Shown here: piece by piece, positions 50,563 through 64,000 of the stretch | Layout of the letters: the number at the start of each line of letters is the position of its first letter | Numbering within the stretch: the first letter of the stretch is position 1 | Source: Hyphomonadaceae bacterium | Lineage (GTDB): Bacteria; Pseudomonadota; Alphaproteobacteria; Caulobacterales; Aquidulcibacteraceae | Length of the DNA stretch: 64,000 nucleotides | Reading direction: 5' to 3' | Assembly: GCA_019753105.1 (NCBI GenBank) | Contig: JAIELJ010000006.1 | Coordinates: 434,001 to 498,000 of the forward strand | Program-made: the position numbers and the translations under genes | Notes under the pieces: model-generated | Told to the model about the DNA's origin: nothing | Databases searched by the model: none | What the model saw: the letters and a program-made list of their open reading frames with translations, nothing else

Positions 50563-51203
50563 ATGCAGACGTGCGCCAACGTACTCACCGTAGCTTTTGC
50601 TGGCCTCGAAGCGCGCCGCATCGAGGTCCAGGTGCAGATGACCGGCGGCACGAACGGCATCGTCATTGTCGGCCTGGGCGACAAGGCAGTCTCTGAATCC
50701 CGCGAACGCGTCCGTGCTGCCTTTGCCTCGATCGGATTGGCGATCCCGGCAGGCCGCTTGGTGGTGAACCTTGCGCCTGCCGATCTGCCGAAAGAGGGGA
50801 CGCATTACGATCTGCCGATCGCGCTCGCGATGATGGCGGCCATTGGCGCGCTGCCGGTCGATGCGCTCGATGGCATTGTCTGCTTCGGCGAACTTGGTCT
50901 CGACGGTTCGCTCGCGCCTGCGCCGGGCGCGTTGCCCGCGGCGATGGCCGCGCACAGCATGGATGCTGGGTTCGTTTGCCCTGAAGCGTGTGGCGCTGAG
51001 GCGGCGTGGGCAGGTGGCGAGGTGATTGCAGCGCCGACTTTGCTGTCGCTGGTCAATCATTTCCGTGGTGGCGCAGCGATCAAGCCGCCCGAACGGGGCG
51101 ATCTCATTTCCGCGGAGGCTGCGCCAGATCTGCGCGACGTGCGCGGACAAGAACAAGCCAAGCGCGCTTTGGAAATCGCAGCAGCCGGATCGCACAACAT
51201 TCT
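50563..51203 (+). pseudogene. comM: comM 5' fragment, interrupted by the serine-recombinase element
   Basis: ComM/YifB is an AAA+ helicase that drives branch migration during natural transformation. The fragment begins MQTCANVLTVAFAGLEA at the ATG at 50563. It includes the Lon-protease-like fold with GLGDKAVSESRERVR and PADLPKEGTHYDLPIALA, and the RGQEQAKRALEIAAAG entry to the AAA domain. It stops at GSHNIL, just before Walker A. The native frame continues at 63590. Read-through into the element adds 14 codons before a stop at 51246. Confidence 0.93.
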
Positions 51204-51217
51204 TCAGTTATGGCCAA
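51190..51217. other. attL junction of the integrated element
   Basis: The chromosomal comM sequence CGCACAACATT is followed by CT (51202-51203) and then element sequence TCAGTTATGGCCAA. The same CT occurs at attR (63590-63591), and a two-base core is what large serine recombinases use. The inner arm TCAGTTATGGCCAA is an inverted match to the attR inner arm TTGGCTACAACAGG (10 of 14). Confidence 0.75.
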
Positions 51218-51251
51218 ATAAAAACTGCGTAATATCAGCTATCTAGCCTGT

Positions 51252-51953
51252 ATGGTGAGCGTGACTCGCATCGTTGCTTGGAACTGTGCGGGCAAGTTCT
51301 CGCGAAACGCGGCGGCTCTCGCGGCGCTTGATGCGGACATCTGCATCGTGCCGGAAGCGCTCGAAGGCCATGCGGATGCGTTAGGCGCGAACTACTCGGT
51401 TCATTGGCACGGCGACGAAGGTCAGCGTGGACTCCTGATCGCGGCAAAACGCGACTGGCGCATCGAGGTGGTGCAGGCCGCTCCGCAGAGACACATGGCT
51501 TTGACGACGCTCCAAGGGCCAACGACATCTCTGTCGGTGATCGGTGTCTGGGCGATGCGCGGCCCCAAAGGCTGCACGGGCGCAGTGATCGATGGGCTAG
51601 ACACATTGCTTCCGCTCGCCGCCGCATCACCGAACGTGTTCGTCGCCGGTGACTTCAACGCCTCGCCCGTGTTCGACTCTTCAAGTCCACCGGCACTTCG
51701 CTTCGCGGAAATATCTGGCCGCCTACAAGACGCGGGCCTTGTGAGCCTTTGGCACGACAGGGCAGGCGAGGCATTCGGCGCGGAGTCTTGCGCGACCTAC
51801 CATCATCAATGGAAGCAAGAGCAACCGTTTCACATCGACTTCGCATTTGCTTCCAAGGCACTCGCGGCTCGGTGTCGCCACTTCGAGATCGGTAAGTTCG
51901 ATCCGTGGTGCCAATCGAGTGACCACGTGCCGCTTGTTGCGGATTTCGATTAG
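51252..51953 (+). CDS. Endonuclease/exonuclease/phosphatase (EEP) family protein
   Basis: This 233-residue Mg2+-dependent phosphoesterase keeps the EEP motifs. These are IVAWNCAG with the Asn ligand, VPEALEG with the metal-binding Glu, FVAGDFNAS, FHIDFAFAS and SDHVPLVADFD with the catalytic Asp-His pair. Homologues cut DNA or RNA or hydrolyse phosphoesters, and this one has no signal peptide, so it acts in the cytosol. It is the first gene of the element on the left and is followed 28 bp later by the SRAP gene. Confidence 0.88.
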   Translation: MVSVTRIVAWNCAGKFSRNAAALAALDADICIVPEALEGHADALGANYSVHWHGDEGQRGLLIAAKRDWRIEVVQAAPQRHMALTTLQGPTTSLSVIGVWAMRGPKGCTGAVIDGLDTLLPLAAASPNVFVAGDFNASPVFDSSSPPALRFAEISGRLQDAGLVSLWHDRAGEAFGAESCATYHHQWKQEQPFHIDFAFASKALAARCRHFEIGKFDPWCQSSDHVPLVADFD

Positions 51954-51981
51954 CGCTTGCGGATTCAAGAAGGGACGGGAC

Positions 51982-52665
51982 GTGTGCAACCGATACGCAG
52001 CGGACATCCGCAAAGCCGGTCTTGAGAAAGAGTTTTACGGCTTCGAGGAATGGAGCGAGACGCGGATTACGCCCGTGCTCGGAAACGCACTGCTCGAAGT
52101 GTTTCCGAAAAGCTTCGGTCCTGTGATTGTGCGTGCGGAAAGCGGTGCGCTTGAGTGGATACGAATGCGTTGGGGCTTGCCCGGACCAGCGACGATGGGT
52201 GGTGCACCTGTCACGAACATTCGGAACGTCGCAAGCGGTCACTGGCGGCCCGTGTTCGGCGTCGAGCATCGCTGCTTGGTGCCGTTCACGGCCTTCAGCG
52301 AGTATGAGGATTCATCGCCAAAGGGTGCGAAAGTCATTCGCTGGTTCGCACCGCGAGATCGCGGGATGTTGTTCTTCGCGGGCGTTTGGCGTGTGTGGTC
52401 AGGCGACTACGGCTCAAAAAAGGAGCCGAACGTCGGTGAGCATCACCTGTTCAGCTTCTTGACGACTGAAGCGAACGATCTTGTGAGGCCAGTCCACGCC
52501 AAGGCGATGCCAGTGGTGCTTGCGACGCCAGAAGCGCGGGAAGAGTGGCTCACGGCCCCGGCATCTTCAGTGGCCGATATTCAATCGCGAGTCTTGCCCG
52601 CAGACGTGCTTGAGATCGTGCCCGATGATGAAGCCGCACAGTTTGTTGGCGGGTATTTGAAGTGA
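51982..52665 (+). CDS. SRAP family protein (YedK/HMCES)
   Basis: SRAP proteins form a covalent crosslink with abasic sites in single-stranded DNA through Cys2. The 227-residue protein starts at a GTG with MCNRYAAD, so Cys2 is available after Met removal. It also has VTNIRNVASGHWRPVF, FTAFSEYED with the Glu, and PVHAKAMPVVL with the catalytic His (the usual variant is HxRMP). On the island it may protect ssDNA intermediates or act as a nuclease/peptidase-like factor. Confidence 0.93.
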   Translation: MCNRYAADIRKAGLEKEFYGFEEWSETRITPVLGNALLEVFPKSFGPVIVRAESGALEWIRMRWGLPGPATMGGAPVTNIRNVASGHWRPVFGVEHRCLVPFTAFSEYEDSSPKGAKVIRWFAPRDRGMLFFAGVWRVWSGDYGSKKEPNVGEHHLFSFLTTEANDLVRPVHAKAMPVVLATPEAREEWLTAPASSVADIQSRVLPADVLEIVPDDEAAQFVGGYLK

Positions 52666-52693
52666 TCTCAAGGTGTCCCACCATGAGCCGTGG

Positions 52694-53302
52694 TCAGAGT
52701 GTTGGTAGATGTCCGGTCAGTGAAAAGACAGGCCACGTCTCGGAGTAGCCGGGGTGATATCTCATCAGTAAGAAAGACGACCCAATATTGTGCGGGACAC
52801 GGAAGCTAAAGGTGGGAAGCCACTTTTCCACGTCAAACGGCGAAAGCCACGTCTCGGCTGTATGAATGATCAGGACATCCACGCAGATGCGTCCGTCATA
52901 GCGTGCATTTTTGTCGGTGATCCGATCTTGGATGCCGGACTGCAAAAGGTCAGGCGTCCACTGTGCAGCATCGAACAGTTCATCTGACGCTGTAATACGT
53001 TGGCCGTTCTTTCGGGCGGCATCGATGGCGCGAAGAATCTTCGGGTTCACAAGCTCGGTAAGCTCAATCGAAATCTCATTGCCTGCCAACAACCCGATGC
53101 AGTCTGGTGGATCATGGTCGCTACTGCGGATGTTTGTTACGGATAGGCCGAATTTGGATCGGCTGGACGTGGCCCATTCTACCGCAGTCAGTCGTTCCAT
53201 GGCCTTGCGATCAAGCGCCGTCTCGACCGCAAACTCATGGGAGTGGCCGCGCCGGTTCATCATGTCGATGACGCGGCGAAGTTCGTGGTTTTCTTGCGTC
53301 AC
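52694..53302 (-). CDS. Unknown protein with a possible PD-(D/E)xK nuclease core
   Basis: This 202-residue cytosolic protein has no clear family. It contains DHDPPDCIGLLAGNEISIELTEL, where a PD followed by an ELTE segment resembles the metal-binding strand of PD-(D/E)xK-type nucleases with T replacing K. An N-terminal helical region and a C-terminal W-rich part complete it. Its reading direction opposes the SRAP gene, whose stop lies 28 bp away. The nuclease assignment is tentative. Confidence 0.5.
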   Translation of the reverse strand: MTQENHELRRVIDMMNRRGHSHEFAVETALDRKAMERLTAVEWATSSRSKFGLSVTNIRSSDHDPPDCIGLLAGNEISIELTELVNPKILRAIDAARKNGQRITASDELFDAAQWTPDLLQSGIQDRITDKNARYDGRICVDVLIIHTAETWLSPFDVEKWLPTFSFRVPHNIGSSFLLMRYHPGYSETWPVFSLTGHLPTL

Positions 53303-53342
53303 GGGCCAACTTGTCCTCTGGCGCGACGTTCGGTGGCGAATA

Positions 53343-53651
53343 TCACCATTCGAGCAAAGACACTGACACGAGTCGGTCGTTTATGGCTCGCGCCAGTTCA
53401 GCCGCTTCGTCCATGCTTGTGCCCGCTCGCATTCCAAGCGCCACGAAGCTCTGGGTGCTGCCCGGTTCCTTGAGGTGCGACAGGCCGATAAGCAGCGACA
53501 GCGCACCATTGCCGTCATTGCGTATGTAAGCCTTGTCAATTGGGTGCTTCGGGGTTTTGGGCACGAACGTCTCCGAATCAAGGCTTAGTCGCTCATACCG
53601 ATTTGGGGTGGCTTCGACTTCCATCAAGATTCCTGGCCGCAATCGCGCCAC
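53343..53651 (-). CDS. Unknown small protein of the element
   Basis: This 102-residue acidic protein has no signal or membrane segment. It shows an alternating pattern with ALSLLIGLSHL, SFVALGMRAG and DEAAELARAINDRL, suggesting a small alpha/beta fold. No family is recognised. It lies between the six-helix membrane protein gene and the PD-(D/E)xK-like gene, all on the minus strand, and could be part of one transcript. Confidence 0.45.
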   Translation of the reverse strand: MARLRPGILMEVEATPNRYERLSLDSETFVPKTPKHPIDKAYIRNDGNGALSLLIGLSHLKEPGSTQSFVALGMRAGTSMDEAAELARAINDRLVSVSLLEW

Positions 53652-53676
53652 GATGCCGGTTGAGGGCTGCGCCGGG

Positions 53677-54450
53677 CTAATCGCGTTTCGCCCGAACTCC
53701 GAAGACGGGCACCTTCAATCCGAAATGCAGGATCGCGCCAGCGAGCATTACGGCGGGAATGCCGACGAACATCGATAGCTGAAGTGCGTCGATCAACTGC
53801 TTGTCCGCAAGGCTCACGTAGACCGTATGTCCGTGGTTGGTGAGTGGCTCTGTGTGTGTGGCGGTTGGTGAGGATGAGCCGTCGCGCATTCCGACGCCGA
53901 AGAAGTAAAACGACGCGACGCCAGCAATCCAGACAAGCATGAAGACGACGCCGTATGCCGTGCGAAGGGTGCGCTTCCACCCATCTTCGGACGGCTTGGT
54001 TTCCAAGGGTGACGCAGGCGCGGGCGGTTCGCCGCATTGCGTGAGAAACTCTTCCTCTGAAAGCGTTACAAGTTTGAGGGCGTTCGCGGTGTTAAAGACA
54101 CCGATGCCTGCAATCGCCAAGAACCATGGCAGCATGTCGGGTGACGTGGGTGAAGCCAAAGGCGTCAGGGCGAAGGCGAACAGTGCCGTCGCTGCCGCCA
54201 TGAAGCTCGCGTTGGCTATTTCTTTGATGCCAATGCCGGGCCATCGCCAATGCGCGGCACGTTTGCGTAGCGCTGAAATGACGATGGCGATGCTCATGAG
54301 AGCGCCAGCGATTACAAGTTCAGCCGCTACGCCCAAACCTCCGCCGATGATCATGAGGATCATCATGCCACCGTGGAAGCCCATCATGAGCTTGAAGTCG
54401 GTAGACATCTCCGACCAATTGCGTGGATGAGGGTGTTTGTTGCTGAACAC
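53677..54450 (-). CDS. Polytopic membrane protein of the element
   Basis: This 257-residue protein has about six hydrophobic segments (roughly 22-52, 84-108, 110-126, 168-190 and 224-246, the first region counting twice). A hydrophilic loop near 132-166 is Glu/Pro-rich. Met-rich GFHGGMMILMIIGGGLG at the first helix is notable. No transporter signature was recognised. It lies upstream of two small minus-strand genes and downstream of the Rep-like gene. Confidence 0.65.
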   Translation of the reverse strand: MFSNKHPHPRNWSEMSTDFKLMMGFHGGMMILMIIGGGLGVAAELVIAGALMSIAIVISALRKRAAHWRWPGIGIKEIANASFMAAATALFAFALTPLASPTSPDMLPWFLAIAGIGVFNTANALKLVTLSEEEFLTQCGEPPAPASPLETKPSEDGWKRTLRTAYGVVFMLVWIAGVASFYFFGVGMRDGSSSPTATHTEPLTNHGHTVYVSLADKQLIDALQLSMFVGIPAVMLAGAILHFGLKVPVFGVRAKRD

Positions 54451-54595
54451 GTTCTAGGTTTCTGATGGCGTGGAGACCAAGGCAAGTTCGATAGTCTTAA
54501 GCAATGCTTCGCACACAAGCCCTTCCGCCTGTTTAGATCAGATGCGTGATGATTCAAAGCTGTGGCTATCGACCCGACCACCACAAGGTCATGAT

Positions 54596-55195
54596 CTAGG
54601 TGAGCGAGACGTTATCCAGGTCGATGTGATCGAAGAAGTGTCCGGTGGGCTTCTTCTTGAGCGAATACGAAAGAGCGCCGTCGCTCCATGCCGGTTTAAC
54701 GTCAGCGTTATCAGCAAACGCCAATCTCTCCCACGCCGCTTTGACAATCTCGCAAAAGTCACCGCGTTCTTGCTCCGGTATCTCGATCCAGCCGTGATAG
54801 TGAAGGCCAACCAGAGCACCGGCTTCGCAAGCGAATGCATGTCTTAGTTTTTTACCGCGCCGAACTTCGCGTCCCTTAAAGTAGCGGCGGCTCAATCGCT
54901 CCATGAAGACCGTTACAGTGCGAGATAGTTCAGCCGCCGAGAGTTTGTAGAACCTTCCTTTGATGCGAGCTTTGTCCGTGGCGCGGAGCGTGACGAAGAC
55001 CTTTGGCACGTCAGGAATCCAGAGCCACTCCATGACTTCACGGCGCATCTGCGCCAGAAGTTCTTTCCTGGGCAGATCAATGTGTGCACTGTTGAATATG
55101 GATGGCTCCAACGTTTGGAGCGGCGACGGGCAGGGTCTCAAGTTTTCTCGATCATCTGGTTTTATTGATCCGTAGCCATGCGTTGAGCCGATCAA
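54596..55195 (-). CDS. HUH endonuclease, rolling-circle Rep-like protein
   Basis: This 199-residue protein has GLHYHGWIEIP, in which H132-Y-H134 fits the His-hydrophobe-His metal motif. Further on, Y177-S-L-K180 in LSYSLKKKP fits the YxxK nicking motif of single-tyrosine Rep proteins. Such enzymes nick DNA at a replication origin or transposon end. It is likely to serve replication or transfer of the excised element. Its start overlaps the upstream HTH gene by 44 bp, so the true start may lie inside. Confidence 0.7.
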   Translation of the reverse strand: MIGSTHGYGSIKPDDRENLRPCPSPLQTLEPSIFNSAHIDLPRKELLAQMRREVMEWLWIPDVPKVFVTLRATDKARIKGRFYKLSAAELSRTVTVFMERLSRRYFKGREVRRGKKLRHAFACEAGALVGLHYHGWIEIPEQERGDFCEIVKAAWERLAFADNADVKPAWSDGALSYSLKKKPTGHFFDHIDLDNVSLT

Positions 55196-55364
55196 GTCGA
55201 TAGCGCACGCTACGTCCTACCTTCATAAAGGGCGGGCCGATGCCAGTTGAGCGCCAGTTGCTCAAGGTGCCCACGGCCAGCTTCAACAGGGATGCCGTTT
55301 CGTTGGGAGTGAGAAGTATTAGGCCAGGCAAGGTTGTTCGTGATCTCCAATGTGATGCGTGCAC
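55152..55364 (-). CDS. AlpA/excisionase-type helix-turn-helix protein
   Basis: This 70-residue protein has a MerR-like HTH. It includes LTPNETASLLKLAVGTLSNWRS, the wing IGPPFMKVGRSVRY and the final RLDRLNAWL helix. Proteins of this type include the AlpA regulators and excisionases of integrative elements. It lies upstream of the Rep-like gene and may control it or assist excision by the serine recombinase. The usual start may be downstream of the long N-terminus. Confidence 0.75.
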   Translation of the reverse strand: MHASHWRSRTTLPGLILLTPNETASLLKLAVGTLSNWRSTGIGPPFMKVGRSVRYRLDRLNAWLRINKTR

Positions 55365-55654
55365 CAGCTATTTAGGTGCGTGACGACTTTGGTTCGGTGG
55401 GATCAAAGGCTCACGACCTTAGTCGGAGCTTGCGGGGCGAACGATGTTCAACAGCCGCCATTACAATGAGCTACATACTACACCGGATCGATGCGCGGTG
55501 CGAGGCGATTTTCGCGATCTCGCGGTTCTCGCGCAGTGAGTTTGTGTGACTCAAGAACGAGTTAGTTCTTGGATGATTCAGGAATGTTCGAGGTTTTGGA
55601 GCACTTGCACGCGAACGGCCTTGGTAGGAATGTTCGCTCTGGATCACATCGCGC
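55365..55654. other. 290-bp noncoding segment before the TIR gene
   Basis: Neither strand has a convincing gene. The segment separates the minus-strand Rep/HTH genes from the plus-strand TIR gene, so it should hold promoters for both. A short direct match is seen (GGAATGTTCG at 55581-55590 and GGAATGTTCGCTCTGGA from 55626). Its base composition looks less GC-rich than the chromosomal core. Confidence 0.5.
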
Positions 55655-56449
55655 ATGAAATGGGAGTGGGCAGAGTTGGGGGCGGTGTTCATTTCATACC
55701 GACGTGGAGATTCGTCGGGTGTCGCAGGACGCTTGTTTGATCGCTTAGAGCAAGCCCTGGGGCATAACAGCGTCTTCATGGACGTTGATTCAATCGAACC
55801 CGGCCTGGACTTCCTCGACGTGTTGAATCGTCATCTAGGGCAGTGTGACGTGATGCTCGCGGTTATCGGCCCTAGTTGGCTGACGACCAAAGACAGTCAT
55901 GGTCGTCGCAGGCTGGATGACGACGCTGATTTTGTTCGCATGGAAGTCGCAACCGCACTGGCACGCGGTATTCGTGTTATTCCGATCCTAGTGGATGGTG
56001 CTGCGGCCATGGCCGCATCTGATCTCCCAGATGACCTAAAGGCGCTGGCTCGCAGGCAGGCGATTGAGATTCGACATGATCGATTTGGCTCGGACGCGGA
56101 GCAACTCGCAGCGACGTTGAGAGGGATAGTGGCCAACGTCACCCAAGCGTCGCTCCCGCAGAGTGGCGTGATTGGCACTTGGCGCGGGGAATTGCGCTAT
56201 GCGGCGGACAACGTTGTGGCTCGAACATGGGTGCTACACCCGAACGGACAACTGGTTTCCCCGCACAATGAGTTTGGCTTTTCCGAAGAGGGCGCTTGGA
56301 GGCTTGAGAACGGCGAACTGATCGTGACGTTCCCGTGGGGGACGATTTTTCGAGGAAGGGTCGTGGGCCAAGCGTGTCGGGGAACGTCTCGTTTTCCTGA
56401 GACGGGGGTTGAGGGGACCTTTGAGATGCATAAGGTCGAATCGCCTTAG
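55655..56449 (+). CDS. TIR-domain protein with a beta-rich C-terminal domain
   Basis: This 264-residue protein has a TIR domain (about 8-160). It has the box-1 VFISYRRGD, the DVDSIEPG loop, VIGPSWL and a putative catalytic Glu97 in FVRMEVATALARG. Many bacterial TIR domains cleave NAD+ during anti-phage defence. Residues about 170-264 form a second, Gly/Trp-rich beta domain (IGTWRGELRY, GAWRLENGELIVTFPWG) resembling a lipocalin-like sensor fold. It stands alone on the plus strand in the element, so it may be a self-contained sensor-effector. Confidence 0.85.
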   Translation: MKWEWAELGAVFISYRRGDSSGVAGRLFDRLEQALGHNSVFMDVDSIEPGLDFLDVLNRHLGQCDVMLAVIGPSWLTTKDSHGRRRLDDDADFVRMEVATALARGIRVIPILVDGAAAMAASDLPDDLKALARRQAIEIRHDRFGSDAEQLAATLRGIVANVTQASLPQSGVIGTWRGELRYAADNVVARTWVLHPNGQLVSPHNEFGFSEEGAWRLENGELIVTFPWGTIFRGRVVGQACRGTSRFPETGVEGTFEMHKVESP

Positions 56450-56476
56450 CGCTGGGCGTTCGCTCGCGACAAAAAA

Positions 56477-56680
56477 TTAGAAGCCGAGCAATCTCTTCAC
56501 CGCGAAGATGATCAGCGCGATCACCAGCCCGCCAGCCAAAGCTTCCATCGCCACGGAGAACGTCGATTGCCGATGCCGATTGCGGCGGGGAGGCGGTCGC
56601 CAGCCATCGTTGGGATCGTAGTTCCTGAGCACGACGTTAGCGTGGATCAAAGCGAACCGGCGGCGGCGCCTTGGCGACAT
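56477..56680 (-). CDS. Small single-pass membrane protein
   Basis: This 67-residue protein has an Arg-rich cytosolic N-terminus and one C-terminal helix (ALAGGLVIALIIFAVKRLLGF). Its first 44 bp overlap the end of the patatin-like remnant. No family is recognised. It could be a leftover coding potential of the patatin gene's 3' region, so confidence is low. Confidence 0.35.
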   Translation of the reverse strand: MSPRRRRRFALIHANVVLRNYDPNDGWRPPPRRNRHRQSTFSVAMEALAGGLVIALIIFAVKRLLGF

Positions 56681-57629
56681 ATATGGTCCCCGCGCGATGG
56701 CCGAGTTGCTCCAATAAATCTAGGTTGCCTTGGCCCACGCTCGACATGTCCGCAATCGAGCGAAGTTCGCGGTCGCTGAGTCTTCGCTGAAGAAGCGAGC
56801 TTGCCTTAAACTCGCTACCCTCATCGGAAAACTCATGAGCGTTCTCAAGTCGAACGTCGCAGCGTTGATAGTGCAGTAGAGGTGCTGGACAGTAGGGTGC
56901 CGCGAATTGGTCTTTCTTCTCGCTGTTGATCCACCACTTCAGAGGACATTCCGACAACGCTTGCAGGTATGCGACTTGCTGAAGCCCAACGTCGTTTATC
57001 ACTCCGCGAAGGGAATCGATTGTCAGCCCGGCGTAGATGGCCGCCTTCGAGCGTTGTCGTATGAGACCAGTGCCCACCGACATGAGGTAGATGTTTTCCG
57101 CACTAAGTCGCCAACCAAATCCGTAAGCTGGGTCAGACGCGATCATCACAAGCTCAAGTGCAGGGTTGTTCAAACCAGCTACCGCGCCATCAACGAGAAC
57201 GGCTTTGTGTTTCCCGATTTTGCTGACCGGATCGAAGTAGTGGGGAGCCGCAGCGCTGGCCTGCACCAATTTGCGGAGGCGTAAGTCGGCGTTAGACAGG
57301 TATGTGGGGTCAGGTGTGATAGACTGGAAGTAATACCAGCCGGGATTATTCGTCAGCGCCCAAGGCATGCCGGTGTCGAGGCGTTTCGCGAAAAGCGCTA
57401 ATCCAGTGCGAAGCTTCTCTGACTTCAAAGTTTCGTCGGCGAACGCTTCGTTGAGAGCGTCGCGAAGAGGCCGATTGTCGAAGCGAGACCCAAAGATTCC
57501 AAGTGATCGGGCTCTACGAAATAGGCGCGGCAGCACCAGTTTGTAGAACGCCGAAATTTCCGCGACTGACATCCCCATCGCAAGTCCGGTAGCAATAATC
57601 GCTCCGGTTGCGAACGGTGAGCGAGTTTC
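56637..57629 (-). pseudogene. Patatin-like phospholipase, truncated at the catalytic serine
   Basis: The reading frame from 57629 encodes ATGAIIATGLAMGMSVAEISAFY, which matches the segment right after the GxSxG nucleophile of patatin/CapV-type phospholipases. It continues through VQASAAAPHYFDP and LVDGAVAGLNNPA, the catalytic Asp-Gly motif. Upstream the frame reads RSPF and then a stop, so the oxyanion hole and the serine are absent. The first ATG would be at 57578. The gene therefore appears broken at about 57609-57617, next to the divergent PLD-like gene. Confidence 0.75.
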
Positions 57630-58714
57630 TCAACGTCTCCCTAGTTCTCCAACCTCACTGGAAACAGCTATTCGTGCTCGGCATGATTTTCGTGGCGAGT
57701 TACGCACGCACGGCTTGGCGCGGCGGGCAGCGTTTGGCTGCGGTGCGGGAAATCGCTTCAGGCGACAATCCCCGATTCGCGGTTGCGTTTTGGGGACGTG
57801 GAGCGCCAGAAGCTCTCGGTTTGAAAGATGGCCGCTACAAGATCATCTGCAACTTAGAAATGGGCGGCACCAACCCGCACGTCATACGAGCGCTAGACGC
57901 GGCAGAAATTGAACGAACTGGCTTCACCAAGCGCATTCGCCAACGCGATGATCTGCACGCCAAAGTCTTTATCTGCGACCATCTTGCGCTGGTTGGTTCG
58001 GCCAATGCTTCCGCGAACGGTCTAGGTTTTGAAGGAGCGGAAGCCAAAGGATGGCTCGAAGCAGGCATTCGGATAGACGATCCAACCACGCTGAAGACAA
58101 TAGCCGATTGGTTCGCGAATACGTGGAAGAGTGCGGACCGGATTAGCGGTGACGACATCGAGCGGGCGGTGTTGGCTTGGAAACAAAGGCGTCGCGCCAA
58201 GCCCACTTTGCTCGGCCTGAACAAGCTCGACCCCGATGCCGATGATGTCCCGCTGATAAACTGGTGGGGCGATGGCGACTATGAGGTTGCGGAAAGCGTG
58301 AACGACGACGACAGGCTGCTTATCGACGATAGCGTGGAGATCGAGCACGACGACGACAGGGCAGTCCTGTTTCCGGGGCGGTGGGTGCTTTATTGGAAAC
58401 GCAACTTGCGAAGCTCTCTTCCAAACAAATCTGCCAAACTGGAATTAGTGCAGTTGGGACGTGTCGCTGCGAGCGCCGTCCGAATGGAAGGGGGGACCAA
58501 GTTTCTTGACGTTGCCCTTCGTGCGGATGAACCAGGACCGCCCCCGTTCGAGATCACGGATGAGTTCACTCGGACATTCAAGCGCCTGATCGCTCAACCC
58601 AAATACGCTTTCCTACGGCGCGATGAGTATGACGCTTTCTTTGCCCCAGCAATTCCTCAAATGCGTGAGTTGTGGCGCGAACTGAAATCTTCATTGAACC
58701 AAACCGAGGGATAG
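57608..58714 (+). CDS. Phospholipase-D-like (HKD) protein
   Basis: This protein of up to 368 residues has one HKD motif, H117-A-K119-V-F-I-C-D124, followed by GSANASANG (130-138). Single-HKD proteins usually dimerise to act as nucleases or phospholipases. The N-terminal 40 residues are hydrophobic and join to the patatin-remnant breakpoint, so the native start may be lost or lie further on (ATG 57683). The C-terminal region is probably a family-specific domain. Relatives occur in restriction and defence loci. Confidence 0.7.
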   Translation: MRTVSEFLNVSLVLQPHWKQLFVLGMIFVASYARTAWRGGQRLAAVREIASGDNPRFAVAFWGRGAPEALGLKDGRYKIICNLEMGGTNPHVIRALDAAEIERTGFTKRIRQRDDLHAKVFICDHLALVGSANASANGLGFEGAEAKGWLEAGIRIDDPTTLKTIADWFANTWKSADRISGDDIERAVLAWKQRRRAKPTLLGLNKLDPDADDVPLINWWGDGDYEVAESVNDDDRLLIDDSVEIEHDDDRAVLFPGRWVLYWKRNLRSSLPNKSAKLELVQLGRVAASAVRMEGGTKFLDVALRADEPGPPPFEITDEFTRTFKRLIAQPKYAFLRRDEYDAFFAPAIPQMRELWRELKSSLNQTEG

Positions 58715-58716
58715 CG

Positions 58717-59574
58717 ATGTGGTCCAAAATTGCCCGCGACATGCTGCTTTCGTTGGCGATCTGGATGCTCGCCGCGCCGACACAATCGGCATTCGCTTGG
58801 AGCGGCGACGCTCACCAGCTTGTTGCAGACCTTGCCTATGAGCGCCTGACCCCCGCTGCGCGGTCCGAAGCTGACCGCCTGATCGCAACGCAGAGCGCAA
58901 ACGTGGAGGGCTGCATGATCGAGAACTTCGCTCGCGCTTCGACGTGGCCAGACTGTGTGCGACGCCGTTCGGGATACACTCAGACCGCGCCGTATCACTA
59001 CATCAATGTCCCGATCACTGGTTCGACGACCGTTCAGGACGATTGCCAAGAAGTCGGATGCATCAGGGAAGCGATAGGCCGCTACGAACGCACGCTCGCT
59101 AACCGCCGTGCATCAGATCGGGAGCGCCTAGAGGCACTGGCGTTTCTCGCGCACCTCATCGCGGACCTTCATCAACCGCTACACGTCTCCAACAACTGTG
59201 ATCGTGGCGGCAATGCCATTGACTTGATCTTGCCGAGCGGTGCGACGCCTGACTTGCATGAAGCGTGGGACGACCACTTGGCGCGGAACGCCATGCGTGG
59301 GCGGGGACGCCGTGCAATTGCAACGTTGGTGACGCAGAACGCCACTCGCTGGTCTGGCGGCGATGTCGAAGCATGGTCGCTCGAAGGCAATGAGATTGCG
59401 CGGAGCTTCGCCTACGGTGCGCTGCCGGTGCGACTGGCGTGTGGAGAGACGCCAGATGCGCCGTTGATGATCTCGAACGCCTACGTGCAGCAATCCGTGC
59501 CGATTATTCGCCAACAGTTGGCGAGTGCAGCCGTTAGGCTATCGGAACTGCTGAACACTACTCTTTCGCGTTGA
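58717..59574 (+). CDS. Secreted S1/P1-type nuclease
   Basis: This 285-residue nuclease has a signal peptide MWSKIARDM...AFA. The mature protein begins with Trp (WSGDAHQLVADLAYERL), and the N-terminal Trp is a zinc ligand in this family. The other metal-site segments are present, including YHYINVP and LAHLIADLHQPLHVSNN. The ATG at 58717 was chosen over an upstream frame extension because it starts the signal peptide. Such enzymes cut single-stranded DNA and RNA outside the cytosol. Confidence 0.93.
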   Translation: MWSKIARDMLLSLAIWMLAAPTQSAFAWSGDAHQLVADLAYERLTPAARSEADRLIATQSANVEGCMIENFARASTWPDCVRRRSGYTQTAPYHYINVPITGSTTVQDDCQEVGCIREAIGRYERTLANRRASDRERLEALAFLAHLIADLHQPLHVSNNCDRGGNAIDLILPSGATPDLHEAWDDHLARNAMRGRGRRAIATLVTQNATRWSGGDVEAWSLEGNEIARSFAYGALPVRLACGETPDAPLMISNAYVQQSVPIIRQQLASAAVRLSELLNTTLSR

Positions 59575-59575
59575 A

Positions 59576-59875
59576 CTAAGGCTTGTTCAAGCACGGCGAC
59601 TTCAGCGGGTAAGGAGCCTTTGCACCTCTTTCGAGCGCGGCGTTGACTTTATCGATGACACGACTTTCAAGGTCGGCCCATACGATGATTGCATCAGTCT
59701 CCGTTTTGAATTCGAGAGTGACGCAACCACATCGAAATTCTCGATGAATGAGCAATTCCACCCCATGGTCCGCGATGACGCTCGATAGCTCGCACAACCA
59801 ACTATCCGGGAAACGAACCTTCCAGGTTCCGGCCTGCTGGTCTACGGCGGGCGGGCGTCCGTCGTTTGTCATCAC
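59576..59875 (-). CDS. Unknown small protein paired with an XRE regulator
   Basis: This 99-residue protein has no signal or membrane segment. It contains DSWLCELSSVIADHGVELLIHREFRCGCVTLEFKTETDAIIVW, an alpha/beta-looking core, and a Lys/Pro-rich tail. Its start overlaps the stop of the XRE gene by four bases, so the two are co-translated. The arrangement is like a small regulator-effector or toxin-antitoxin pair, but no toxin motif is recognised. Confidence 0.6.
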   Translation of the reverse strand: MMTNDGRPPAVDQQAGTWKVRFPDSWLCELSSVIADHGVELLIHREFRCGCVTLEFKTETDAIIVWADLESRVIDKVNAALERGAKAPYPLKSPCLNKP

Positions 59876-60132
59876 ACCTCGAATTGCTTTGGCAACTGCC
59901 GCAGCACCCTTCCGAGAAGGTCACGCGGCTCGATCTTCAGTGCTCTCGCGATCATGACGAACTCTAGCACGTCCACTCGACGTTCGCCGCTTTCGATCCG
60001 CGACACGAACTGTTGGCTCTTGTTCAGGCGTTCCGCCAACTCGGTTTGAGATACGTCGGCGGCCTTGCGAGCCTTCACCAAGACCGCAACTAGGGCCTTG
60101 TTCTCATCGGAGTGAAGGGAAGACTTGGACAT
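59872..60132 (-). CDS. XRE family transcriptional regulator
   Basis: This 86-residue Cro/C1-type HTH protein has ADVSQTELAERLNKSQQFVSRIESGERRVDVLEFVMIARAL and a basic C-terminus. It is probably autoregulatory. It is divergent from the membrane-protein gene starting at 60219, so a shared operator in the 86-bp gap is plausible. Confidence 0.9.
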   Translation of the reverse strand: MSKSSLHSDENKALVAVLVKARKAADVSQTELAERLNKSQQFVSRIESGERRVDVLEFVMIARALKIEPRDLLGRVLRQLPKQFEV

Positions 60133-60218
60133 TGCCGGGCCAGAACCGGCACCCCACCTATACCGGCTTTTCCGTTACACAGTTTCCCGGTAACGTTGCG
60201 GTTGGGTGGGGGTGACAA

Positions 60219-61070
60219 ATGCGTCTACTGGTCGTGTTGGGCCTATGGGTGGCCGTGTTCATTGGTGTCGGTGTGGTCGCCAGCGAATGGCGTGAAGACC
60301 CGACATTTGCCTACATCGTTGCCGGTGCGGGCTTCATCTATTTCCTTCCCACCAGCATCGGCTTCATTCGCAAGCATCGCTATCGCTGGATGATCCTTCT
60401 CGCGAACCTGTTCGTCGGCTGGACGGGTCTTGGTTTGCTCGCGCTCTTTGCGTGGTCCGTTTGGCCTAAGAACACGCCGCTCAACCCGCCTCTTGAGCGC
60501 TCGCTGATGGCCCCGCTCGGTGACGGTTCAGACGAAGCGCCCCTGGCCACACAAAAGGGGAGTCCGTGGCCTGCCGTGATCGGCGTTGCGGGCGTCGTGA
60601 TGGTGTTGGCGGCGCTTGGTTGGGGGTGGACGCAGTTCCAGGCCGGGCAGGCAGTGCAGCAAGAGGCTACGGTGCCCGTGCAGGCCGTAGAGACATCTCC
60701 AACCCCCGAAGCACCCGCGCCCGTCAGCGAGCCTGCCACGACGCTTACTTTGGGTGTTGTGCGAGACGACGTGCTTGACGCCGGTGCGGGGTGCGTCGCG
60801 ACCAATCTCGCGGGTGAGAGCGTGTTCGTGACGGACTTCCAAGCGGCGGCGGTCGCCTTCAACGGCGGCACGACGATGCTTGCGAAGGCGGGTGAGCAAC
60901 AGGGCGTCGAGACTTATGCAGATGCCGCCAACGAAGTTCGCGTCTCTCTAACACGAACGGGTGAGCCGGTTGAGGCAGGCGTGGAATCCTCTGCGTGGCC
61001 CGCCATCCTCACGCTGTCAGCCTTGGGGCGCGAAACGACCCTGGCTGTCACGCTGACTTGCGGATCGTAG
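60219..61070 (+). CDS. Membrane protein with an extracytoplasmic domain
   Basis: This 283-residue protein has three N-terminal transmembrane helices (about 3-18, 27-43 and 53-75), a cytosolic loop and a fourth helix near 118-140. The C-terminal 140 residues are Thr/Val/Ala-rich with a beta-rich domain and two Cys residues (GAGCVATN and LTCGS). No family is recognised. Its stop codon directly precedes the GTG of the next gene, so they are co-transcribed. Confidence 0.65.
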   Translation: MRLLVVLGLWVAVFIGVGVVASEWREDPTFAYIVAGAGFIYFLPTSIGFIRKHRYRWMILLANLFVGWTGLGLLALFAWSVWPKNTPLNPPLERSLMAPLGDGSDEAPLATQKGSPWPAVIGVAGVVMVLAALGWGWTQFQAGQAVQQEATVPVQAVETSPTPEAPAPVSEPATTLTLGVVRDDVLDAGAGCVATNLAGESVFVTDFQAAAVAFNGGTTMLAKAGEQQGVETYADAANEVRVSLTRTGEPVEAGVESSAWPAILTLSALGRETTLAVTLTCGS

Positions 61071-61466
61071 GTGCCGCGCATCTACCATCCCGAAGGGGAG
61101 AGGCCGCCGCGCCTTCCTGCTTTGGTGTTTGTCTTCGGGTCTAACCTTGAAGGTCATCACGGCAGCGGTGCGGCACGCATCGCACGGGAAGAGTTTCAGG
61201 CCGAGCGGGGCGTTGGTAAGGGCCGAACGAACATGGCCTACGGCATACCCGTGAAGTCCCAGCACCAAACGCTTCCGCTAGATGCCATCGCGCAAAGTGT
61301 GAGGGAGTTTGTGGCCTACGCCGACGCCAACCCGTCGCTCACGTTTTACGTGGTTCGCGTTGGGTGCGGGCAGGCCGGATACGCGGACGCTCAAATCGCA
61401 CCGCTGTTTGCCGGTGCTGGCGCGAACTGCATTTTCTCCGAGAAGTGGAAGCCTTGGTTAGACTGA
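61071..61466 (+). CDS. Phage-type protein with a macro-like fold (A1S_2505-like)
   Basis: This 131-residue protein contains ALVFVFGSNLEGHHGSGAARIA, AYGIPVKSQHQTLPLDAI and YVVRVGCGQAGYADAQIAPLF. The pattern matches small proteins found in phages and islands, including the A1S_2505 family, whose FGSNLxGxHGxGAA and GCGxAGY motifs resemble nucleotide-binding loops of macro-type domains. The assignment is by motif only. The GTG start touches the preceding stop. Confidence 0.65.
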   Translation: MPRIYHPEGERPPRLPALVFVFGSNLEGHHGSGAARIAREEFQAERGVGKGRTNMAYGIPVKSQHQTLPLDAIAQSVREFVAYADANPSLTFYVVRVGCGQAGYADAQIAPLFAGAGANCIFSEKWKPWLD

Positions 61467-61479
61467 TACGGAGCCTTCG

Positions 61480-61707
61480 ATGACACCAGACGAAATCTCG
61501 AAGCTTTCACGCGATGAGCTTCTCGACACGATGCGTCGTGAGGGCATTCCCGTGGTGATGTCACTTTTTGCCACGGTGCACCACAAGTCCGCTGAAAGGC
61601 CGGGGGGATTTGATGCGTCTGACCTGGACCAGATCAGCGACGACTTGGAAGACGGCGATGTGCGTCGTTGGCGTGCCGAGCTTGTGGCGCACTTTGCCAA
61701 ACGGTGA
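61480..61707 (+). CDS. Unknown small protein of the element
   Basis: This 75-residue acidic protein (MTPDEISKLSRDELLDTMRREGIPVVMSL) begins 14 bp after the phage-type gene. A long N-terminal helix dominates, with DLDQISDDLEDGDVRRWRAEL at the end. No family is recognised. It converges with the recombinase gene. Confidence 0.5.
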   Translation: MTPDEISKLSRDELLDTMRREGIPVVMSLFATVHHKSAERPGGFDASDLDQISDDLEDGDVRRWRAELVAHFAKR

Positions 61708-61711
61708 ACGA

Positions 61712-63550
61712 TCAGTGTTCGTGTGGCGACCAGTAGATGTATTCCGCTTCTGGTTCGAGGAAGACAGGTTCACCGTCTCTTCCGCGCACCGCTCGCCTGT
61801 AAGCGCTCTTGTCGAAGTCGGCGTGGTTGGCCGGTCGAGTGGGGCACAAGAAGCGATAGACTGCGAGGTTCGATGGGTTGGGCTGAACTACTTTGCCTCC
61901 CATCCAGTCTCGAAACTCGATGCTGAATGCAGGCGCATCGATCATCGAGTCGCTCGGATCAAACAGGCCGTATTCTTCAGCCTCTTCAGTTGAGCCATCG
62001 AGGCGGTCACGCCAAGGATCAGCAAAGAAACAAGCAAGTCCGTCCGTGCTGATGTCGATGCGCCTAACAACGACCCGGATTTGCTGGGCCGCCAGCGCCC
62101 GTTTGTTCTCCACGTCGGTTTCGCTCGCGTGGTCATACATTTCCTGGAAGTTGGTGGGCATGAGTTCTTGGGAGCGCAGCGCCCGCACGTCGGAGCGCTC
62201 CACTTCCAGCGCTTTCAAAGTCTCTTCCGCTTCCTTTAGTTCGTCGTCCAACTCGGCGCGGCGATTCAGTGTGGTTTCGGAAGGGCCATCCTTCATTCGG
62301 CGGAAGGACTCATCCATGATCTTCGCTTGGTTCTTCAAGCCATCGAGCCGCTCTTGGGCCACAGCAATCTTGCCTTCCAAAGTCGGAAGCAAACGCTCGC
62401 TGGCTTCGAGTGCATCGCGAATGCCGAGATGGAGTTCGGCATGGTGAAAGAACGCACGCTCGAAATGGTCGTAACGCCAAACCTTCTTGACGCAGGACAT
62501 GCCACGATTTCCCGCCTCGCAAACCAAATAGCGAGCGCCTTTGGGTGGTGCGCCTTTGTTCAGTAGCCGCATCGTTGCGCCGCAATGAGCGCAAAACAAA
62601 AGGCCCTTGAAGAGATTCGCGTGGTTTTCGCCAGTTCTGCCTCCCCCGCCGTTCTTTGGCTGGCGTGACCTAATCGCGGCGTTTGCGGCAGCAAATACTT
62701 CTTCGGAGATGATGGCGGGATAGTAACGGGGGAGGGGATCACCCAGCGGCTTTCGCTTCCCACCTACAAAGTGGTGAGGTTGATACTCGCCAAGAACCGA
62801 TCTGCTTCCGAGAATCTTTTTGATGTAGGATGGTTGCCAGCCTTTCGAGCGCCCAAACGTCGGCACCGCATCAGCGTTTAGTCGGCGGGCGATTGTGAAC
62901 GCTCCAAGTCCGCTCCCGCTCTCGCGGAAGATACGCCGGACGATTTGCACCCGCCCATCGATCTCCCTGAATGAAGCGATCTTTTTGTCCTTCGCTCGCA
63001 CCGGCTCAAGCCATTTGGGTGCCACTGATGTGACTGGTTTCTCATCGGCCTTGGCACGACGGTTCTTCCATGAAGCTTGCAGTCGCTCTTGTTTCGTTTT
63101 CGATTCTTCGTGCGCTCGCTGAAAGGTTAAGACGGACAACAACAACTGCATGTGGTTGTTGTTCAGGTCCGTATATTTCTGACCGTCGATCAAAGTGACG
63201 ACCGTGATGCCGTGCCGACAAATCGACTGAAGAAGTGTCACCGCAGGGAGAGGTTGATCTCTTGAAAGACGGTCCAGGTTCTCAACCAGCAAGTAGGACC
63301 CTGCCGGGATGTCGCCGTTCTCGATGCGCTGCAAAAACACGCCGAGCACGCCTTCGGACAGATGCTTCCCTTTGAAGGCGCTCTTTCCGATGTCCTTCAG
63401 TTCATCGCCTTCGACCAAATCAAGGTCGTGGCGCTTCGCGTAGTCGCGTGATTTTTCTAGCTGGCGTCGCAGACTGTCGCCCCGCAACTGATGCTGGGTG
63501 CTCATCCGAAGGTAGGAATAAGCACGGGGGCGGGGTGTATCAGGCTTCAT
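61712..63550 (-). CDS. Large serine recombinase (site-specific integrase)
   Basis: This 612-residue enzyme has an N-terminal resolvase domain with YLRMSTQHQ (catalytic Ser17) and [10 protein letters not shown] recombinase domain with [27 protein letters not shown] follows, then a zinc-ribbon with [10 protein letters not shown] and further Cys. A long Glu/Arg-rich coiled coil lies at about 380-450. Such enzymes join attP and attB through a two-base core. Its start lies 40 bp from attR, the usual position next to the integration site. It is transcribed toward the inside of the element. Confidence 0.97.
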
Positions 63551-63573
63551 CTGTCTGATTTTACACGAAAAAG

Positions 63574-63605
63574 ATTTGGCTACAACAGGCTGTTTGTTGG
63601 GCCTC
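63574..63605. other. attR junction of the integrated element
   Basis: Element sequence TTGGCTACAACAGG is followed by CT (63590-63591) and then the comM sequence GTTTGTTGGGCC. Ligating the outer comM arms at CT gives the continuous reading [14 protein letters not shown]. The inner arms of attL and attR together would form an imperfect dyad, as expected for attP. Confidence 0.75.
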
Positions 63606-64000
63606 CAGGCGCCGGCAAGTCGATGCTTGCGCAGCGTTTGCCTGGTTTGTTGCCGCCGTTATCGAGCGAAGAATTGCTCGAAGTTTCGATGCTGCATTCC
63701 GTCGCCGGATTGCTGCAGCGCGGTCAACTCACGCGCACGCGCCCGTTCCGCGCTCCGCATCATTCCGCATCAATGGCCGCACTTGTCGGCGGCGGTTTGC
63801 GCGCAAGACCGGGCGAAATCTCGCTGGCGCATCAGGGCGTGCTCTTTTTGGATGAGCTTCCAGAGTTCTCGCAGCAGGCGCTTGATGCGCTGCGTCAGCC
63901 GCTTGAGACCGGAAACGTGCTGATCGCGCGCGCAAATCATCACGTCACCTATCCCGCGCGTATTCTGCTCGCGGCGGCGATGAATCCGTGCCGGTGCGGC
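63590..64000 (+). pseudogene. comM: comM 3' fragment (continues past the window)
   Basis: This segment continues the comM frame interrupted at 51203. It encodes [17 protein letters not shown] (Walker A), [34 protein letters not shown] (Walker B) and AAMNPCRCG, all typical of the ComM/YifB AAA domain. It has no start codon of its own in a good position and depends on excision for expression. The gene runs past base 64000, so its end is unseen. Confidence 0.92.

Follow-up and report, generated by a model that had tools for sequence, protein, structure and literature searches.

Interruption of comM

This locus raises the question of what interrupts comM, how the interruption arose and whether it serves as a switch on natural transformation. 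The window, i.e. the whole stretch of 64,000 nucleotides analysed (Hyphomonadaceae bacterium, GCA_019753105.1, contig JAIELJ010000006.1, positions 434,001–498,000), carries comM in two pieces. They are separated by an integrated island of 12,388 bp (51202..63589), delimited by a shift in GC content (per kb about 0.54–0.62, vs 0.61–0.66 in the preceding 7 kb) and by its junctions. The interruption follows the codons HNI, next to Walker A. Very probably it is a genomic island integrated site-specifically by its own large serine recombinase (LSR), by a CT crossover in the HN(x)L codons before the Walker A of comM, and keeping comM broken.

The 5′ piece (50563..51201, plus strand) comprises the ChlI/Lon-like domain up to HNI before Walker A, with PF13541 (E 1.7e-35) and the start of PF01078 in the Pfam scan, and matches comM of a same-genus genome at 84% (tblastn). 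The 3′ piece (63590..64000, plus strand) consists of Leu-Phe-Val and Walker A onward, matches PF01078 (E 5e-65, Pfam) and runs beyond the window; its remainder lies on the same contig and ends at about C1:498465. The comM profile has six matches in the window's genome (99.98% complete): two are the split pieces (E 3.2e-92 and 9.5e-48), and the other four are at E 3.1e-5 or worse. A second comM is not found by the profile search of this genome. The interruption of comM by the 12,388-bp island is confirmed as real, and the split is not due to chance, because a comM break at the same codon with an adjoining LSR recurs in six other genomes of the order.

Removal of 51202–63589 in silico gives a joined comM frame without stops. 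The native reading of comM loci of the same genus, checked at the junction by pattern match, is HNILFV in 20 of 21 and HNILLV in one; a 22nd locus (G016, L015/L053), missed by the pattern, reads HNILFVGPLG. The comM of G016 is otherwise intact, with GPLGAGKS as Walker A, not GPPGAGKS. The original prediction of a comM split by a serine-recombinase island, with in-frame restoration on removal of 12,388 bp, is borne out.

Integration site and recombinase

The left junction, attL (51177..51228, plus strand), and the right junction, attR (63565..63616, plus strand), have the dinucleotide CT in common at the cut (51202–51203 and 63590–63591, respectively); excision at CT would give back the native target reading. 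The LSR gene (61712..63550, minus strand; 612 amino acids) begins about 40 bases inside attR and reads inwards. Resolvase (PF00239), Recombinase (PF07508) and zinc ribbon (PF13408) domains are all above cut-off. Alignment to 3guv, a solved resolvase-family chain, is weak (E 3.4e-5). An inverted-repeat arm GCCAAAT of the putative attP is located at 51213..51219 (plus strand), its partner ATTTGGC at 63574–63580. An inverted-repeat tool run at each junction finds none; the proposed attP arms sit at opposite ends of the island.

Relatives of the LSR (398 genomes of the order Caulobacterales searched, matches counted to E 1e-15) are present in 21 genomes. The order is meant in the wide GTDB sense, which unites Brevundimonas with Maricaulaceae; NCBI places the former in Caulobacterales and the latter in Maricaulales. 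An LSR adjoins a comM break at Walker A in 7 of 20 scanned loci (flanks of 1.5 kb, that of the window included). Apart from the window's, five of these LSRs adjoin the right half of comM at this codon (G308, G086, G307, G343, G367) and one adjoins the left half (G073). Compared by eye, six junction pairs besides the window's (G308, G086, G367, G307, G319 and G343) are compatible with CT at the same Leu codon and share longer stretches that include CT.

Among the best 80 of 137 confirmed named relatives, the locus contains a comM fragment in 48 cases, and in 44 of the 48 the break is at codons 205–236; three of the remaining breaks are near codon 37, one near codon 297. Judged by record titles they include Alphaproteobacteria, the gammaproteobacterial genera Vreelandella and Pseudomonas, and Desulfoluna and Trichlorobacter of the Desulfobacterota. 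The same kind of recombinase, looked for in comM of other genomes as had been proposed, is found both within the order and beyond it. On a tree of 100 LSR rows, of which 96 differ and 94 bear a label, the Walker A label clusters, with 14 changes vs a shuffled mean of 31.2 (0 of 500 shuffles as low). L055 (G073) is labelled 'other comM' by rule, despite its break at Walker A, and is left out of A1; L126 is left out of A2. Anatomy and recurrence together support LSR integration at a conserved landing site.

The island's LSR would recombine at the CT dinucleotide within the conserved HN(x)L codons just 5′ of Walker A. The split persists while the island is present, and ComM function would be lost with it. 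As a landing place the site has the merit of being conserved, single-copy and located in a gene that the host can do without. The island itself may also gain from the break: ComM promotes recombination of long heterologous DNA taken up by the cell, a route by which transformation could delete the island. A benefit through reduced removal by transformation has been proposed in print for other elements and may apply here. Excision could restore comM exactly and would need a directionality factor; it is possibly rare.

Several observations weigh against this interpretation. The junctions have a second common repeat, the 6-base ACAACA just upstream of CT, which is longer than CT. As a crossover core ACAACA would yield HNRLFV, found in 0 of 21 loci of the same genus, so CT is the better core and ACAACA is rejected. 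Symmetry of attP around CT is modest (13 of 25 positions; 503 of 63940 window centres are as good). The LSRs at Walker A are not one clade, well-supported branches forcing at least 8 label changes, and 39 of the 94 labelled relatives are without comM within the available flanks. The LSR of the window is divergent (best identity 43% to any relative on the tree) and has no match at E 1e-20 in 59 other genomes of the family; for these two reasons its activity in integration and excision is a prediction. In favour of the interpretation, the window's genome keeps a ComEC match (E 8.6e-34) and dprA over cut-off; against it, ComEC is over the curated cut-off in 0 of 30 genomes of the genus, although 27 have a match. 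Competence is unproven and the ComEC evidence weak, because ComEC is below the family cut-off in all 30 genomes.

comM as a target in the order Caulobacterales

A comM match is present in 362 of the 398 genomes, over cut-off in 313. Forty-six genomes with weak or multiple comM matches, together with the broken ones of the genus, were re-examined, and element genes were tested by tblastn; the re-examination covers neither G198, G222, G265 and G290 (weak or double matches) nor the 36 genomes without a comM match. At least 34 of 398 genomes have a mobile-element gene at the comM break; the re-examined set contributes 29 of its 46 genomes to this count, and the genus 5 of its 30. The 17 of the 46 not counted comprise G319 and G059, at recurrent sites, G193, with a weak transposase match, and others with contig breaks or unresolved. 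Contig breaks in G018, G021, G212 and G380 are excluded from the count. Codon numbers follow the intact comM of G023 and may be off by a residue or two.

Recurrent sites are four. The Walker A site is occupied by an LSR in seven genomes (G000, which is the window's, G308, G086, G307, G343, G367 and G073), the VGGG site by TniA/TniQ-type elements in two (G026, G172), the LPEF site after Walker B by IS1595-type transposons in 18 and the MNPC/RC site by a second LSR lineage in six (G006, G007, G148, G165, G325, G039). G007 belongs to two classes, with a second-lineage LSR and an IS1595-type element in one comM. Two of the 34 are not simple insertions at these codons: G311, with its left break at VGGG and its right break at LPEF, is counted beside the LPEF class, and G134 has an IS1595-type element at codon 247. 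In a sample of the class (389 genomes at least 95% complete; comM match in 338, over cut-off in 316), 22 broken comM genes were looked at. Eleven of these are assigned to a recurrent site by break position: Walker A in five (G408, G533, G662, G676, G677), LPEF in four (G400, G729, G732, G749) and VGGG in two (G590, G747). Of the other eleven, G558 looks like a frameshift.

The IS1595-type transposons at LPEF are about 3.4–8.1 kb long, with ends like GGCATTATGTAGCAAACACACC. The left ends of 18 of 18 (L124–L138, L143, L038, L039; different genera) are at the same base of comM. Their transposases differ (36–63% identity to that of G019, where that of G019 is the best reference), and DDE_Tnp_IS1595 (Pfam) is detected in 4 of 4 tested. 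No published report of IS1595-type elements fixed on comM was found in the literature search, judged by its listings. Such specificity of the clade for a single base in a single gene would, to our knowledge, be a first in its family. The clade is single-copy in 53 of the 59 genomes with a match. Three of its relatives (L229, L234 and L235) share a different target gene, judged by eye to encode a glycosyltransferase; they sit close to an LGGTSN motif and have duplications of 8–9 bases. The window's genome has one IS1595-type transposase outside comM (L224, G000:C2:146277-147245).

The second LSR lineage (L049, L039) is represented by proteins of 509 and 502 amino acids, 88% identical, at the MNPCRCG motif. 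The element of G026 at VGGG (L040, G026:C24) carries TniA, TniB and TniQ and a dihydropteroate synthase gene (Pterin_bind, Pfam), which we take to be sul-like; GGCGG is present on both sides, and the element resembles AbaR-type insertions.

It is conceivable, with the balance slightly against it, that comM in Caulobacterales is an arena of intragenomic conflict, in which at least four unrelated systems (the two LSR lineages, the Tni-type transposons and the site-exact IS1595-type clade) evolved specificity for different comM motifs because disabling comM protects them from removal by transformation. In more general terms, comM may be a convergent target, perhaps one whose disruption blocks curing by transformation.

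Alternative explanations

A somewhat less probable, though still considerable, alternative is that the island gains nothing from its place in comM and that the gene is merely a conserved, dispensable landing site. The recurrent sites coincide with highly conserved motifs (Walker A, VGGG, LPEF after Walker B, MNPCRCG), as a neutral view would predict for elements in need of a target common to many hosts; moreover, 3 of 9 further insertions looked at, made by relatives of the IS1595-type clade, lie in another conserved gene. Convergence of several unrelated element classes on comM speaks against neutrality, as does the enrichment of competence genes among LSR targets in the relevant passages of a published survey (Durrant 2022, PMC10083194). 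It is also conceivable, at a very low probability, that split comM is still functional in the form of two polypeptides. A frame that keeps Walker A does run through the right half from an ATG in the island (63491), but this start codon is on the opposite strand of the recombinase gene, and such an arrangement would leave the N-terminal domain on a chain of its own. Misassembly is scarcely credible. Some apparent comM splits do seem to be contig breaks, with ends overlapping by about 110–126 bases (G018, G021, G212, G380); here both halves of comM and the island lie within one 596-kb contig, and comparable junctions are found in the one-contig genomes G307, G308 and G367.

In Listeria, a phage LSR inserts in the competence gene comK, from which exact excision is possible. 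By analogy with these prophages the island had been proposed as a regulated, reversible switch that excises under competence conditions and restores comM. This is improbable and goes unsupported here, although comM could be restored exactly and in frame, its two halves being open and undecayed. No excised form is found among relatives, and the attP junction has 0 matches in viral contigs. None of the scanned island proteins (17 with Pfam, 10 with PHROGs) is recognised as a phage structural protein, and none as an excision or directionality factor; the latter negative is weak, since such factors are small and divergent. The island resembles the comK prophage in its LSR insertion in a competence gene and in the possibility of exact excision, and differs in having no recognised phage structural genes and no support for regulated excision. 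Open halves are no argument for a switch, because transposon-split comM copies at LPEF mostly keep them too; as evidence they are rejected, fitting a recent insertion equally well. In one LSR-split relative, G086, the left half is in two frames. The joined halves compared with 16 intact genes (15 genomes, L053 being the genome of L015) give pN of 0.080–0.112 and dN/dS of 0.06–0.10; their mean pN is 0.089 and pN/pS 0.148, vs 0.074–0.114 and 0.119–0.187 for six intact genes. Such values, within those of intact genes, imply either that the insertion is recent or that comM is sometimes restored. The comM of G204 (L143, 701–850) holds a 150-base fragment with 66% protein identity to a Walker A LSR, probably the scar of an old insertion, and comM of G020 is missing from the Walker A leucine almost to its end; these scars suggest that comM may be lost for good after an insertion, which would argue against a stable switch.

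Competence genes of the genus follow no clean rule. All five genomes with an element in comM (G000, G006, G007, G019, G026) have a ComEC match and dprA over cut-off, and in G002 and G022, where comM is decayed, both are absent or reduced to traces. Exceptions to such a rule are G001, with dprA beside a decayed comM, G020, with ComEC and dprA matches although most of comM is deleted, and G005, in which comM is intact and dprA only a trace.

Contents of the island

From left to right, the island encodes an endonuclease/exonuclease/phosphatase family protein (51252..51953, plus strand; PF03372), an SRAP (SOS response-associated peptidase) domain protein (51958..52665, plus; PF02586), a protein without match in Pfam, PHROGs, PADLOC and NCBIfam (52694..53302, minus) and a protein with faint resemblance to replication proteins (54596..55195, minus; PF23343 E 0.0085, below the Pfam cut-off). 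These are followed by a TIR-domain protein, possibly a defence gene product (55655..56449, plus; PF13676; ThsB-like in PADLOC, E 3.1e-12), and a patatin-like phospholipase (56637..57578, minus), which matches a PADLOC phospholipase effector (E 2.3e-14) and is probably truncated (PF01734 positions 64–190 only, the first third missing). Next is a PLD-like protein (57608..58714, plus; PF13091 positions 39–132, the profile start missing, 26.6 bits vs a cut-off of 27). The patatin-like and PLD-like genes (56637–58714) stand head to head, each without the start of its profile, an arrangement that is possibly the scar of one deletion that fused them. Further genes encode an S1/P1 nuclease family protein (58672..59574, plus; PF02265 E 2.6e-48), a helix-turn-helix regulator (59872..60132, minus; PF01381), a superinfection-immunity domain protein (60219..61070, plus; PF14373, phrog_1039) and a protein with an A1S_2505-family phage non-structural domain (61071..61466, plus; NF049995 E 2.1e-38). 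Phage-associated non-structural domains are two in all.

Conjugation proteins are not recognised among the scanned island proteins. Compared with plasmids, 51202–59200 has only a 67-base match at an SRAP gene (4 records); the LSR search in plasmids gives 19 records, every one below 60% identity. P0001 gives two pattern matches in viral contigs and no relative there.

Relation to known systems and significance

Magnesium chelatase is, in our reading, the annotation usually borne by genes of the ComM family. A gene of this annotation is the target of 12.4% of site-specific LSRs in the relevant passages of Durrant 2022 (PMC10083194). The island agrees with those LSRs in the enzyme, in the target-gene annotation, in several divergent LSRs acting on one target and in the enrichment of competence genes among targets. 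It differs in that those passages name neither the codon nor these hosts, and in an LSR at most 43% identical to its relatives on the tree. The novelty implied for a serine recombinase in comM is therefore withdrawn, such LSRs being already in print, and an LSR island in comM is an already known sort of insertion.

AbaR islands are likewise not the only precedent, since other comM-breaking elements are described in parts of two further papers (PMC11472951, PMC10293859). Tn6022-like and Tsy elements use TnsF to target Walker B of comM (Mol Cell 2023, PMC10293859, in part). Site-specific insertion in comM is common to them and to the island; theirs depends on a tyrosine-recombinase-like selector at Walker B, the island's on a serine recombinase at Walker A. 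Unlike the Tn7-like AbaR/Tn6022 elements, the island has no TniA/TnsB-type transposase or TniQ domain among its 17 Pfam-scanned proteins. In Acinetobacter baumannii, as given in passages of PLoS Biol 2024 (PMC11472951), comM is inactivated in 22% of strains by AbaR islands and other elements, its inactivation is proposed to lower the removal of mobile elements, and recombination salvages comM no more often than chance. Breakage of comM by unrelated elements, some with defence genes, is common to both cases; the organisms and elements are others, and those passages do not contain the recurrent codons found here. According to passages of a 2026 paper, no other gene of DNA integration and recombination is hit by mobile elements as often as comM.

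More surprising than the island itself is the wider picture, in which mobile elements interrupt comM of related bacteria so frequently and at so small a number of exact sites. Acinetobacter and LSR surveys had already revealed comM as a hotspot; environmental Alphaproteobacteria of this order show it strongly too, with different enzymes using a few exact codons. The proposal that mobile elements disarm transformation thereby becomes testable in harmless bacteria, and the order also yields new site-specific recombinases and transposons with well-defined targets.

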